Source: Jiulongibacter sediminis (GTDB lineage Bacteria; Bacteroidota; Bacteroidia; Cytophagales; Spirosomataceae). From it: a stretch of 64,000 nt of DNA. Position 1 is the first letter of the stretch, and each line of letters begins with the position of its first letter. The translations under genes and the position numbers were made by a program. This document shows, one piece after another, positions 9,323-15,377 of this stretch. Location of the stretch: assembly GCF_001306455.1 (NCBI RefSeq), contig NZ_LGTQ01000005.1:1-64000 (forward strand). The letters are read 5' to 3'. Below the pieces are notes generated by a model that saw nothing but the letters and a program-made list of their open reading frames with translations, ran no database searches and had not been told where the DNA came from.

Positions 9323-9420
9323 AGCACGTTTATGTACAGCAAATTAACTGCTTATAATTAGCTTTTGCAAATGTTTGTTTGTATTAAAAGTTCAGAAATA
9401 ATTGAAAAAAATGAACATTT

Positions 9421-9450
9421 AAAAAGACTGTTTTTGAGACAGCCTTTTTA
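9421..9450 (-). terminator. Intrinsic terminator of the rimP-nusA-infB operon
   Basis: A hairpin with CTGT/ACAG at the loop and an A/T-rich lower stem with one A-C mismatch. The minus strand ends in a T-run. It lies five bases after the infB stop codon. Confidence 0.7.
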
Positions 9451-9454
9451 AAGT

Positions 9455-12298
9455 TTATTTCAGCGAGCGTTTAATCTCACGGATTTCGTAAGATTCAATG
9501 ATATCTCCAACCTGAAGGTCATTGAATTTCTCAATATTAATACCGCACTCATATCCGGCTCTCACTTCGCCTACATCGTCTTTGAAACGTTTAAGTTGAG
9601 CAATCTTCCCGTCATGCAAAACAATACCTTCACGAATCACTCGAACGCTATTCTGACGTTTCACATAGCCATCGAGTACGTAGCTACCGGCGATTGTTCC
9701 GATTTTAGAGATCTTGAAGATTTCTCTTACTTCGATATTACCAGTAATTACTTCTTCTTCGGTCGGTGCTAACAGACCTTCCATAGCATCTTTGATCTCA
9801 TTGATGGCATCGTAGATGACTGAGTACAGTCTTATTTCAATTTCTTCTGTATCAGCAATTCTTCGTGCATTTGCGGAAGGTCTCACCTGGAAACCTAGAA
9901 TAATCGCATCTGCGGCACTGGCCAAAAGAACATCAGACTCAGAAATTTGTCCTACCCCTTTGTGAATAATTTTCACCTGAACTTCGTCAGTTGAAAGTTT
10001 AAGAAGGGAATCAGAGAGAGCTTCTACTGAACCATCCACGTCACCTTTCACTATGACACTGAGTTCTTTAAATGAACCTATTGCCTTTCTTCTACCAATC
10101 TCATCTAGTGTGATGTGACGTTTGGCTCTGATACTTTGCTCACGAATGATTTGTTCACGTTTGTTGGCGATTTCTCTGGCCTCACGGTCAGACTCCATTA
10201 CATTAAACTTATCACCCGCCTGAGGAGCTCCTGGTAAACCAAGAATTTGAACCGGAGTTGATGGACCTGCGGTTTTGATTCGCTCACCTACATCGTTGAT
10301 CATGGCTCTTACACGACCGAAATATTGACCGGCAAGAATGATGTCGCCTACGTTCAAAGTACCTGCTTCTACCAGAATGGTTGAAACATAACCTCTTCCT
10401 TTGTCGAGAGAGGCTTCGATTACAGCCCCATTAGCTTTTCTGTCAGGGTTAGCTGTCAACTCAAGCAATTCAGCTTCCAGAAGTACTTTGTCAAGAAGTT
10501 CGTCAATACCAATTCCGGTCTTCGCTGAAACTTCCTGCTCCTGGTACTTACCACCCCATGATTCCACAAGAATATTCTCTTTTGAAAGATCTTCTCTGAT
10601 TTTATCAGGGTTGGCACCCGGCTTATCGATTTTGTTCAGAGCAAATACGATAGGCACATTAGCATTTTTGGCGTGGTTAATGGCCTCACGCGTTTGAGGC
10701 ATCACTGAGTCGTCTGCAGAAATTACAATAATAACCACATCAGTTACCTTGGCTCCACGAGCACGCATAGCGGTAAAGGCTTCGTGACCCGGTGTATCAA
10801 GGAAAGTTACGGACTTGCCTTTATTTTCACCTTCCTGAACTTCTACGTTGTAGGCACCAATGTGCTGGGTGATTCCACCAGCCTCACCACTGGCAACTTT
10901 TGTAGTTCTGATGTAGTCAAGTAAGGATGTCTTACCGTGGTCAACGTGACCCATGATCGTAACGATAGGAGCACGCGGCTTCAGGTCTTCCTCGTCATCT
11001 ACAATTTCAAGGTTGTCTGCCTGAATTTCCTCTTCAGCAGAGATAAACTCAACCTCATAATTGTATTCCATCGCTATCAACTGAATTGATTCAGCATCAA
11101 GACGTTGATTGATAGAAACGAACATGCCTAATTGCATGCAAGTTGAGATAACGTCATTGACAGAAACATCCATCATGGAAGCTAATTCAGAGGCAGATAT
11201 AAACTCTGTTACTTTAAGAATTGTGCTTTCTTCATTAACTCTTGCTTCGTCAAGCTCTGCCTGTTCCGCACGGGTTCTACGTTTCTCTCTTCTGTGTTTT
11301 GCACCAAAATCAGGACCTTTGGCCTTCATCTTGGCCATTGTAGCCTTGATGCTGTCTTTGATATCTTCCTGAGTAAGCTCTTCTTTTTGTCCTTTAGCAG
11401 GACCTTTTCCTTTGTTCTTATTATTACCCTTCTGGTTCTGGCTTCTTCCGCCACCGCCACCTTCGCTTTCTTTCTTTTTGAAATATTGCTGATCGGTGAT
11501 GTCGGTAAGGTTACCCAGACGGCTAACTCTTTTCCTTTTTCTTTTCTTTCGGTCTTCTTTAGACTCCGGTTTCTTTTCAACCGGCAATTCGATTTTGCCG
11601 AGTACTTTAAGGCCGGCAAGTTTATCTCCTTTAGCCTTAATAAGTTGATTTTCGGGCTCCTTGGCTTCTTCCTTCTTTTCTTCTTTTGGAGCCTCAGCTT
11701 TAGCTTCAGCCTTCTCTTCTTTTACAGGCTCTTTAACCTCTTCCTTCTCCTCAGCTTTCGGTGCTTCAGATTTGGCTTCTTCGGCTTTAGGAGCAGCTTG
11801 TTCTTTTACGGGCTCTTCTACCTTAACTTCTTCAGGTGCTGGAGCTGGCTTAGATTCCTGAACCGGTTCAGGAGCAGGAGTTTCTGCCTTTACTTCAGGC
11901 TTTTCCTCCTCAGGTTCAATTGATTTCGGAGCTGGCTTCTTGTCCAGATCAATTTTTCCGACAACTTTTGGCCCGGTTATGTTGTGTTCGAATTTAACCC
12001 GCTCTGGAGCTTTTTCTTCTTTTTTAACCTCAGGCTCTTCTCTGAAATAAAGAATATCTTCATCAGAGCTATGTGTTTTTGGCTTTTCAGAAGGTGATGC
12101 AGCCGCTGGGGCTGCTCCCAATAAGACGTTAGTGTCGTATTCTTTTTCAAGAACCTCGAGCAGGTCCGATCCAATTTTGGCGTTTGGTTTGCGGTCTATT
12201 TCATGACCCTTATTCACAAGGGTATCTACAACCTGAGTCCAGCTCACGTTCAGTTTCCTTGCCACAAGGTTCAATCGCATCTCAGTTGTTTCTGCCAT
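9455..12298 (-). CDS. infB: Translation initiation factor IF-2
   Basis: The GTPase that brings initiator tRNA to the 30S subunit and promotes subunit joining. At 947 residues it is long because of an expanded N-terminal region. Residues 1-60 are an IF2_N-like domain, and about 110-215 is an almost pure Lys/Glu/Pro/Ala stretch. A glycine run and basic linker follow near 280-300. The G domain contains [12 protein letters not shown] (G1), DTPGHEAF (G3) and NKIDKPGA (G4), followed by the two beta-barrel domains and the C-terminal C2 domain. The ATG at 12298 is followed by a normal IF2_N start. It is the last gene of the rimP-nusA-infB operon, 56 bases after nusA. Confidence 0.97.
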
Positions 12299-12354: not shown

Positions 12355-13599
12355 CTATTCAAACTCTTTGTTCAGGATGTCCAATACATCCGTCACAGTT
12401 TCTTCTTCAAGTTCAGTTCTTCTTACAAGCTCTTCTTTAGTCAAAGCAAGCACTGATTTTGCTGTGTCAAGGCCAATTTTATGAAGCTCCTGAAGAATCC
12501 ACTCGTCAATTTCGTCAGTGAATTCCATCAAGTCAACATCTTCTTCGATGAAATCCTGTTCAATATCGCGGAAGACGTCAAGTTCCATTCCTATCAGTCT
12601 GCTGGCGAGTTTAATATTTAAACCACCACGACCAATTGCCAAAGACACCTGATCAGGCTTAAGGAATACTGATGCTCTTTCTCCGTTTTCGTCAATCTGA
12701 ACCGAGCTGATTTTTGCCGGGCTTAGTGCACGAGAAATTAGAAGTGGCATATTATCAGTCCATTGAATAACGTCAATGTTCTCGTTTTCCAATTCACGAA
12801 CAATACTGTGAATTCTGCTACCCTTCATACCCACACAAGCTCCCACAGGGTCAATTCTGTCATCAAATGACTCAACTGCTACTTTAGCTCTGTCACCCGG
12901 CTCACGAACGATTTTTTTCACAGAAATTAAACCGTCGAGAATCTCAGGAATCTCAAGCTCAAAAAGTCTCTCAAGGAATACCGGAGAAGTTCTCGACAAT
13001 AGAACACGTGGATTACCATTATTTAGTTCCGCCTTGTGAACCACACAGCGAATACTGTTTCCTTTCCTGAAACGATCTTTAGGGATTTGCTCAAATTTTG
13101 GCAAAGAAAGCTCATTGCCATCCTGATCAAGACAAATCACCTCACGACCAAGAATTTGATAAACCTCAACGGTAATAAGCTCACCAACCTGATCTTTGTA
13201 AAGGTCATACAACATTTCTTTCTCGAGGTCTTTAACCTTTTGAATTAATGTTTGACGTGCTGTCTGAACTACTCTGCGACCGAAGTCTTCAAGCTTAATT
13301 TCTTCAGCTACTTCTTCGCCTATCTCAAAGTCAGGTTCAATTTTCTTCGCTTCCGCCAATGGAATTTTGTCAAAATCCCAGATGTCCTCTGAATTGTCGT
13401 CCACAATTTCACGAGTACGCCACATTTCAAGGTCACCATTTTCGGCGTTCAGAATGATATCAAAGTTACTGTCGTCGTCAAATTTCTTACGAATCATTGT
13501 TCTAAGTACCTCTTCCAGGATAGAAATCATGGTAGGTCTATCAATGTTCTTTTCGCGGGCAAACTCCGCAAATGAAGCAACTAAATCTCCACTGTGCAT
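12355..13599 (-). CDS. nusA: Transcription termination/antitermination factor NusA
   Basis: 414 residues. The N-terminal RNA-polymerase-binding domain is about 1-125, S1 about 130-195, and the two KH domains about 205-345, with the GACVGMKGSRIHSIVREL and LAIGRGGLNIKLASRL loops. The C-terminal tail is acidic, with a helix-hairpin-helix-like WILQELHKIGLDTAKSVLALT. NusA modulates pausing, intrinsic termination and antitermination. It is cotranscribed with rimP and infB. A terminator-like hairpin in the operon leader makes NusA-dependent autoregulation a reasonable hypothesis. Confidence 0.97.
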   Translation of the reverse strand: MHSGDLVASFAEFAREKNIDRPTMISILEEVLRTMIRKKFDDDSNFDIILNAENGDLEMWRTREIVDDNSEDIWDFDKIPLAEAKKIEPDFEIGEEVAEEIKLEDFGRRVVQTARQTLIQKVKDLEKEMLYDLYKDQVGELITVEVYQILGREVICLDQDGNELSLPKFEQIPKDRFRKGNSIRCVVHKAELNNGNPRVLLSRTSPVFLERLFELEIPEILDGLISVKKIVREPGDRAKVAVESFDDRIDPVGACVGMKGSRIHSIVRELENENIDVIQWTDNMPLLISRALSPAKISSVQIDENGERASVFLKPDQVSLAIGRGGLNIKLASRLIGMELDVFRDIEQDFIEEDVDLMEFTDEIDEWILQELHKIGLDTAKSVLALTKEELVRRTELEEETVTDVLDILNKEFE

Positions 13600-13623: not shown

Positions 13624-14085
13624 TTACTTGAAAGAAACCTGAACTACGGCTTCTTTTATCTCATCATATCCAAGCTCTACAGGCTCGGGTTTTGTTTTTT
13701 CTTTCTTCTTTTTGTCAGGCTGAATGGTAAATACATTTTCGCTTGCATTTACAAGTTCACCTTTTACTTCAGTACCATCTTTTTGAATCACTTTAAGCGT
13801 GCGTCCGATGTTTTTAACGAACTGCCTTGAAAGTTTTAGCGGATGGTCAATACCGGGAGAAGAAACTTCAAGCGTGTATGCATTGTCAATTTCTTCATCC
13901 AGAAGTTCACCAAGCTGCCTGCTGATGGTCGAGCATTCATCAATCAGGATACCTTCGTCAGTGTCAACTAATACCGTAATCTTCTGTTTGATTTTCGAGG
14001 TACTTACCTTTAAATCAACAAGATAGAATTTAGAGTCGGCAATAATGCCATCAATAATTCCGGTAATTTGCTCTGCTGTGATCAT
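13624..14085 (-). CDS. rimP: Ribosome maturation factor RimP
   Basis: 153 residues from ATG 14085 (MITAEQITGIIDGIIAD). A longer frame to 14166 would read through the leader hairpin and is rejected. The N-terminal alpha-beta domain carries the LEVSSPGIDHPL motif, typical of RimP, near 80-91. The C-terminal Sm-like domain carries a Lys-rich insertion (DKKKKEKTKPEP). It helps assemble the 30S subunit. Gene order rimP-nusA-infB is conserved across bacteria. Confidence 0.93.
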   Translation of the reverse strand: MITAEQITGIIDGIIADSKFYLVDLKVSTSKIKQKITVLVDTDEGILIDECSTISRQLGELLDEEIDNAYTLEVSSPGIDHPLKLSRQFVKNIGRTLKVIQKDGTEVKGELVNASENVFTIQPDKKKKEKTKPEPVELGYDEIKEAVVQVSFK

Positions 14086-14119
14086 TGCCAAAATGGTAAT
14101 AAACGAAATGTTGTGTAAC

Positions 14120-14145
14120 AAAAAAGGAGGATTGACGCCCTCCTT
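14120..14145 (-). terminator. Terminator-like hairpin in the rimP operon leader
   Basis: On the minus strand, stem AAGGAGG, loop GCGTCAAT and stem CCTCCTT are followed by further T residues. It lies between the predicted promoter (14164-14194) and the rimP ATG (14085), and no minus-strand gene lies upstream that it could serve. It looks like an attenuator, though a pure structural role cannot be excluded. The stem also contains an SD-like GGAGG. Confidence 0.6.
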
Positions 14146-14163
14146 AACACTCCAATTCTTCTG

Positions 14164-14194
14164 CAAAATTAGTCTAATATTTGGTTTTGCCCAA
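14164..14194 (-). promoter_or_regulatory. Promoter of the rimP-nusA-infB operon
   Basis: On the minus strand a -33 TTG (14194-14192) is followed after 20 bases by TAATTTTG (14171-14164), a full match to the TAnnTTTG box with good spacing. The predicted start near 14158 gives a leader of about 75 bases that contains the hairpin. Confidence 0.65.
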
Positions 14195-14282
14195 GTTTTG
14201 TCTTCAAATTTAAACTAATGATAAACTGGCAGAAAGAGTCCGGTATTTTAATTCTATCTTTCGGCGTGCATTCTTTTTTACT

Positions 14283-15377
14283 GTGCGATTTTTAAGAGAT
14301 TTTATCACCAAGTTTTTCTTTCTGCTGAATTTTCTGGCAGCTCTGTATGCCCTTCTGGTATTTCAGATTTCTTATGCTGCAGATATAAGACATTGGCTTG
14401 GTGGTTTTCTAATGCTCTCAATTCCGTTTGCCTTTGCCATAAATCTTTTTTTTCTCTTTACGTATGCTTTTTCACGTTCGTGGAAATTTGTGGTGTCACT
14501 GGTGGTACTCATTATTGGGTACCCACTGATGGAACGAACACTTAAGTTCTCTCTTCGCTCTGAAACAGAGCTGGGCGATCAAAGGCTTTCAGTGATGAGC
14601 TATAACGTGATGTATCTGAATCATGCAGATAGGTCAGATGATGGAAAAGCCTTGGCTGCAAGAATTAGCAATGACCTTGACACTCTCAGGGCTGATATAA
14701 AATGCTTTCAGGAAATAATGAACAGCCCTCAGGAACCCCTTTTTGATACCTTTGATCGCCTGAAAAAAGTGAATAAGCATTTCACGTATATGCACTCTGA
14801 AATTGACCCGAAAAGTGAATTTGGTGCTGTAGGCCTTGCCACTTTTTCAAAATATCCGATTGTAGCCAAAAAGGAGATTTCATGGAAAATCAATAATAAT
14901 GGTGTCCTGATAACAGATATAAAGGTCAAAGAGGATACTGTCAGGGTGTTTAACCTGCAGTTTAAATCTATGGGTATACGGGTTCAAAAGGCGATTACGG
15001 CGGATGAAATTAAACGGAAACAGGAAGCACGTAATATTCTGAGCCAACTTAAATCTGGTTTTGAGGATCGTGCTCTTCAGGTAGACCAGGTGGAGGAATT
15101 AATAAAGGAAAGTCCTTATCCTGTTATTTTGGCCGGTGATTTTAATGAATTGCCATATGGGTATGCCTATGGCCGAGTTAGAAAAGAGCTGGCAAATGCA
15201 TTTGAAGAAGCCGGTTTTGGATTTGGTTTTACCTATCACAAGCTACCCAGTTTCATCAGAATTGATAATATCTTTTTTGACTCGGATAAATTTGAAGTAC
15301 TAAACTTCAAAACCTTTAACGAGCTCAAAGGTTCTGATCATTATCCAATCAAGGCAAGTCTCAAAATTAGAAACTAG
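14283..15377 (+). CDS. Membrane-anchored endonuclease/exonuclease/phosphatase family protein
   Basis: 364 residues. Three hydrophobic N-terminal segments (about 8-30, 36-60 and 67-85) anchor it in the inner membrane. The rest is an EEP fold: VMSYNVMYLN, KCFQEIM (metal-binding Glu), LAGDFNELP, RIDNIFF and SDHYPIKASL are the ordered catalytic motifs. The family includes nucleases, inositol-phosphate and sphingolipid phosphodiesterases, so the substrate is open. No ATG is available; the start is GTG at 14283. It is divergent from rimP and overlaps nadE tail to tail by four bases. Confidence 0.85.
   Translation: MRFLRDFITKFFFLLNFLAALYALLVFQISYAADIRHWLGGFLMLSIPFAFAINLFFLFTYAFSRSWKFVVSLVVLIIGYPLMERTLKFSLRSETELGDQRLSVMSYNVMYLNHADRSDDGKALAARISNDLDTLRADIKCFQEIMNSPQEPLFDTFDRLKKVNKHFTYMHSEIDPKSEFGAVGLATFSKYPIVAKKEISWKINNNGVLITDIKVKEDTVRVFNLQFKSMGIRVQKAITADEIKRKQEARNILSQLKSGFEDRALQVDQVEELIKESPYPVILAGDFNELPYGYAYGRVRKELANAFEEAGFGFGFTYHKLPSFIRIDNIFFDSDKFEVLNFKTFNELKGSDHYPIKASLKIRN

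Follow-up and report, generated by a model that had tools for sequence, protein, structure and literature searches.

A short promoter-linked hairpin precedes rimP-nusA-infB across Bacteroidota and probably acts as a transcription attenuator

The rimP-leader was called the most ubiquitous attenuator by Naville & Gautheret (2010, PMC2965389), whose main text proposes NusA as the regulator, citing NusA repression of the operon, and likewise notes no antiterminator. The authors name Firmicutes and Gammaproteobacteria; Bacteroidetes are not named in the main text of that paper, supplements aside. In B. subtilis, as summarized in a 2025 review (PMC12288461), NusA stimulates termination in the leader of its own gene and so autoregulates nusA; the review describes NusA as most active where a terminator hairpin is weak or its U-tract interrupted. 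Closer to the present locus, Flavobacterium psychrophilum has a structured 5′ transcribed region ahead of rimP that is reported as kept in other Flavobacteriaceae genera and has no Rfam match (PMC9723704); the portion of that article describing the element gives no mechanism and sets its range at the family. Beyond these, the literature searched, which lay mostly outside subscription papers, yielded no description of a rimP attenuator in Bacteroidota.

The window analyzed here is the whole 64,000-nucleotide stretch at the start of Jiulongibacter sediminis contig NZ_LGTQ01000005.1. On its minus strand, the first gene of the operon is rimP (13,627–14,085, the end given without the stop codon), assigned by two Pfam models that cleared their cut-offs, PF02576 at 67.1 bits and PF17384 at 33.3 bits; the NCBIfam model PRK02001.1 scored 115 bits, under its cut-off of 123. 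It is followed on the same strand by nusA (12,355–13,599; TIGR01953, 373 bits, over cut-off), the presumed source of feedback, and by infB, encoding IF2 (9,455–12,298; TIGR00487, 808 bits, over cut-off). Directly after infB, a 14-pair hairpin with a T-rich tail (9,418–9,452, minus strand) forms a candidate operon-end terminator. In all 62 loci long enough to test, nusA came after rimP on the same strand.

The leader itself is compact. Its promoter, read from the sequence, comprises a TTG at 14,194–14,192, a 20-nt spacer and TAATTTTG at 14,171–14,164 (minus strand, 14,164–14,194 in all). We take the TTG-N20-TAATTTTG arrangement to be a promoter of the main sigma type of Bacteroidota, judged by its consensus. 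From this arrangement, rimP transcription probably starts 5–7 nt past TAATTTTG. A 5′ flank of the leader RNA (14,146–14,158, minus strand), near-invariant in two same-genus species, leads into a terminator hairpin at 14,124–14,145 (minus strand), predicted from the sequence, a terminator scan and folding. Its arms, AAGGAGG (14,145–14,139) and CCTCCTT (14,130–14,124), form seven Watson-Crick pairs and one inner G-U pair around a loop of six. The interrupted T-run TTTTTTGTT (14,117–14,125, minus strand) consists of T6 at 14,125–14,120 followed by GTT, and the rimP ATG lies at 14,085, 38 nt from the hairpin. Re-reading the sequence confirmed in its details the order given by the sequence-only reading, namely promoter, 7-base-stem hairpin, T-run and rimP ATG. 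The same reading had noted that no gene precedes the hairpin for it to terminate, and this is correct: the neighboring gene, with a profile match to Exo_endo_phos (14,283–15,377, plus strand), is divergent. The box motif used below, TAnnTTTG, is also named in the F. psychrophilum article (PMC9723704).

The main text of Naville & Gautheret (PMC2965389) allows a direct comparison with the rimP-leader. Shared features are an intrinsic terminator before rimP-nusA-infB with a G-rich 5′ arm and a C-rich 3′ arm, a location in the 5′ UTR, a hairpin followed by a U-stretch and no antiterminator; the published distance of 4–130 nt from the gene start also encompasses the 38 nt found here and the 7–123 nt found in relatives. 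The published signature GGGc..gCCC differs, since the window has GGAGG/CCTCC in its place, and was present in only 1/86 and 7/59 leaders of the two sets described below. Length differs as well: the B. subtilis leader is reported at 180 nt, whereas the Bacteroidota hairpin is locked 10–31 nt past the promoter box. The B. subtilis nusA leader (Mondal 2016, as summarized in PMC12288461) likewise carries an intrinsic terminator, and NusA feedback was demonstrated there; it belongs to another phylum, its leader is far longer than the one here, and a NusA effect would carry over by analogy. The F. psychrophilum element (PMC9723704) shares both phylum and gene with ours. The Rfam family RF01770 (rimP, Gammaproteobacteria) covers the same operon leader with a longer model of 102 positions. 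It gave no match in the window at its gathering score (47 bits) and none at E values up to 5 in 13,980–14,300, and it exceeded the cut-off in 0/39 relatives and 1/14 control genomes, so an Rfam identity for this leader was rejected. The kind of attenuator is already known, and the form seen in the window would be a variant of it, without GGGc..gCCC and outside RF01770.

Folding energy by itself does not set the leader apart, the values being modest (−10.3 kcal/mol over 44 nt, z −1.5; −16.4 kcal/mol over 71 nt, z −2.25). The rimP hairpin was among the top sites of a generic scan for terminator-like structures, which, taken alone, is weak evidence given its high background (20 sites in 14 kb vs 12.6 expected). 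Leaders were therefore compared between species in two sets. Set 1 held 86 rimP loci (our own, 52 from relatives drawn from 59 genomes, 6 of which gave no rimP match, and 33 from named Bacteroidota contigs), and set 2 added 59 loci from across the phylum (61 minus L098 and L104, repeats of set 1). Start codons come from automatic assignment, which leaves some of them uncertain. Under a strict rule (stem of at least 5 with at least 4 GC pairs and at most 1 G-U, loop of 3–9, at least 5 T in 8), a hairpin lay upstream of rimP in 81/86 loci of set 1 against about 1.5–1.65 expected from dinucleotide shuffles, and in 45/59 loci of set 2 against 2.1 expected; the relatives' genomes and named contigs may overlap, and 112 strict hairpins were left after near-identical segments were removed. 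A relaxed rule (loop up to 16, at least 3 GC pairs) gave 85/86 vs 9.2 expected and 59/59 vs 9.1 expected, with a sizeable chance rate of about 9 per set and 18/145 overall. The strict rule missed L010, L022, L054, L066 and L086 in set 1, of which L066 missed the relaxed rule too. In controls, the strict rule found a hairpin in 1/86 rimP coding sequences, in 3/85 regions at −650 to −400 and in 1/30 recA leaders (from 30 of the 59 relatives' genomes). On the antisense strand it matched 26/86 leaders because the A-rich 5′ arms mirror a T-run. The predicted leader hairpin is thus above chance, and it is the interspecies comparison that carries the case, not folding energy.

Pairing outlasts the sequence of the stem. 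When 3′ arms were dealt among sequences, pairing fell from 100%, a starting value fixed by the construction of the search, to 70% for 37 distinct stems and to 61% for 51 stems. Covariation was judged by this dealing of arms, since loop differences kept the 5′ arms out of register when 73 hairpins were aligned with MAFFT. Comparative evidence of this kind indicates that the stem sequence turns over in a compensatory manner while predicted pairing is retained, and the stem pairing expected of an attenuator in relatives' rimP leaders was accordingly upheld.

Position relative to the promoter is the second conserved property. TAnnTTTG lay upstream of the hairpin in 76/81 strict matches, and in 75 of those 76 the stem began 10–31 nt past the box; therefore, the hairpin belongs to the rimP promoter. 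A TTG was present another 15–25 nt upstream in 62/75 leaders, compared with 22% of random 10-mers. If transcription starts 5 nt after TTTG, the stopped RNA would measure 33–56 nt (median 47, 75 leaders). Across 464 kb of our own genome, both strands and 485 TAnnTTTG sites, only rimP had a hairpin and T-run at 10–31 nt, by a scan slightly stricter than the leader rule in requiring a stem of 6 or more and no fewer than 6 T in 8. The bare stem AGGRGG/CCYCCTTTTTT recurs elsewhere in a pattern search of the 59 genomes, with 3 matches in 2 places in our own. The bare hairpin is not unique, and the arrangement of promoter plus hairpin is the distinctive part.

The hairpin and tail also differ from those at gene ends. 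The stem of our own leader folds at −9.8 kcal/mol vs a median of −16.05 kcal/mol for 48 gene-end hairpins, and an interrupted tail of the form TT[GA]TT occurred in 43/81 rimP tails vs 7/48 gene-end tails; the gene-end set, selected automatically downstream of open reading frames of 150 codons or more, may contain false hairpins. The weak hairpin (−9.8 kcal/mol) and interrupted U-tract (TTTTTTGTT) that mark NusA-autoregulated attenuators are both found here, and because the hairpin is weak, release should depend on NusA.

Premature termination in the rimP leader is well supported by these comparisons, and the hairpin and T-run probably stop much transcription ahead of the first gene. In the proposed mechanism, RNA polymerase would start about 5–7 nt past TAATTTTG and transcribe a flank of 12–13 nt; at the hairpin and interrupted U-run, a share of polymerases would release an RNA of about 40–45 nt before rimP. 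NusA would assist hairpin formation in the exit channel, so that high NusA would lower rimP-nusA-infB transcription and low NusA would let polymerase pass, a feedback modeled on the B. subtilis and E. coli precedents. We favor the reading, with a probability of roughly 0.6, that NusA limits its own operon by way of a promoter-proximal attenuator in this leader. Of the suggestions made by the sequence-only reading, that of premature termination is sustained by a hairpin, T-run and near-fixed promoter distance kept phylum-wide, and the role of NusA as regulator would follow strong precedent (as reviewed in PMC12288461). If NusA does read the leader, the element could serve in Bacteroidota as a ready reporter of how active NusA is, and would be a clear example of a factor feeding back on the earliest phase of elongation. 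The comparison extends a published attenuator to a whole phylum in which termination control has been little studied, in its simplest version: promoter, hairpin, T-run, gene.

An unlikely alternative is a promoter-proximal terminator or pause site without regulation, which would pass a fixed fraction of polymerases and exert no feedback. An RNA of 33–56 nt is too short to hold a cis sensor, the stem sequence is free to change and an antiterminator is absent: pairing of the 5′ flank with the 3′ arm exceeded 95% of shuffles in only 2/75 leaders and averaged 7.27 vs 7.62 in shuffles, which is not above chance, and therefore neither an antiterminator nor a general alternative fold is indicated. 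The alternative fold through GGAGG that had been suggested from the window's stem was accordingly rejected as a general feature, GGAGG being replaced in most relatives. These properties would suit a fixed terminator; however, near-universal retention at an operon that encodes a termination factor fits feedback better, as do the uniqueness of the arrangement within 464 kb and the B. subtilis precedent.

It is possible, and we propose it tentatively, that the phylum carries a minimal promoter-locked attenuator with no room for a sensor, in which the early elongation complex and NusA would be the sensor and the single-stranded 5′ flank and the loop of this genus would form a binding site, such as one for NusA's RNA-binding domains. 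Flank and loop included, the 57-nt stretch that begins at TAATTTTG and ends with the T-run was 95–96% identical between our own species and two same-genus species, in which rimP itself was 61–67% identical and its third positions 35–44%. From the box to the ATG, identity was 81–83% for rimP vs 56–72% for recA, the one control gene, in the same three genomes. This same-genus identity exceeds the needs of a hairpin and may mark a binding site. Across the phylum, a sequence-reading protein is not implied by the comparison, the published signature being mostly absent and some clades having inverse arms. A conserved word in the 5′ flank was sought and rejected: [GC]A[AT]TT was only weakly enriched (24/85 vs 9.2 in shuffles), lies near the start site and may belong to promoters in general. 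The minus-strand segment 14,158–14,115 was near-identical to its counterparts in the same-genus loci L002 and L003 in flank, loop and T-run despite a diverged rimP.

We consider it improbable that the hairpin chiefly controls rimP translation or mRNA stability, by masking the start region or the 5′ end, with termination minor. In many relatives the hairpin ends 7–20 nt from the ATG, where it could hinder 30S binding, yet it lies anywhere between 7 and 123 nt from the ATG but keeps within 10–31 nt of the promoter, and the T-run directly 3′ of the stem is retained.

Sensing of ribosome assembly, with the GGAGG arm pairing to the free 3′ end of 16S rRNA or RimP binding the leader and so opening the terminator, appears more doubtful still. 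The operon encodes RimP and IF2, and the 16S tail of this genus, being the complement of AAGGAGG, could pair with that arm. Against this, most relatives carry GAGGGGAC, AAGTGGGG, TCGCCC or other arms in place of GGAGG, and no literature was found pointing to RimP binding. Anti-Shine-Dalgarno pairing was rejected as a general mechanism, GGAGG not being retained in relatives, and no evidence was found for the control by ribosome-assembly status that had been put forward alongside NusA. That the hairpin is an ordinary terminator for transcripts arriving from upstream, or marks where a distinct small RNA ends, is very hard to sustain: it would suit L035, where a tRNA-Gln ends 57 nt before the ATG, the hairpin falls in that interval and TAnnTTTG is missing nearby, but the upstream gene in the window is divergent, the promoter lies between that gene and the hairpin, and the promoter-then-hairpin order held in 75/76 relatives with a promoter box.

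Several variants were observed among the loci. Inverse arms, C-rich on the 5′ side and G-rich on the 3′ side, occurred in 12/59 set 2 loci, including L099, L100, L102, L103, L106, L109, L110 and L111, and resemble the upstream terminator of Gammaproteobacteria reported in the main text of PMC2965389. Hairpins with long loops and similar loop words before the T-run were seen in L097, L113, L123, L155 and L156 and in L177, L181, L183 and L184; these clades possibly represent separate leader subtypes. In 7/145 loci (L035, L045, L050, L055, L057, L059 and L060), a tRNA-Gln gene on the same strand preceded rimP by 57–295 nt; in L035, the stretch from this gene to the hairpin contained no TAnnTTTG. 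These upstream genes resemble metY, a tRNA gene within the E. coli nusA operon leader.
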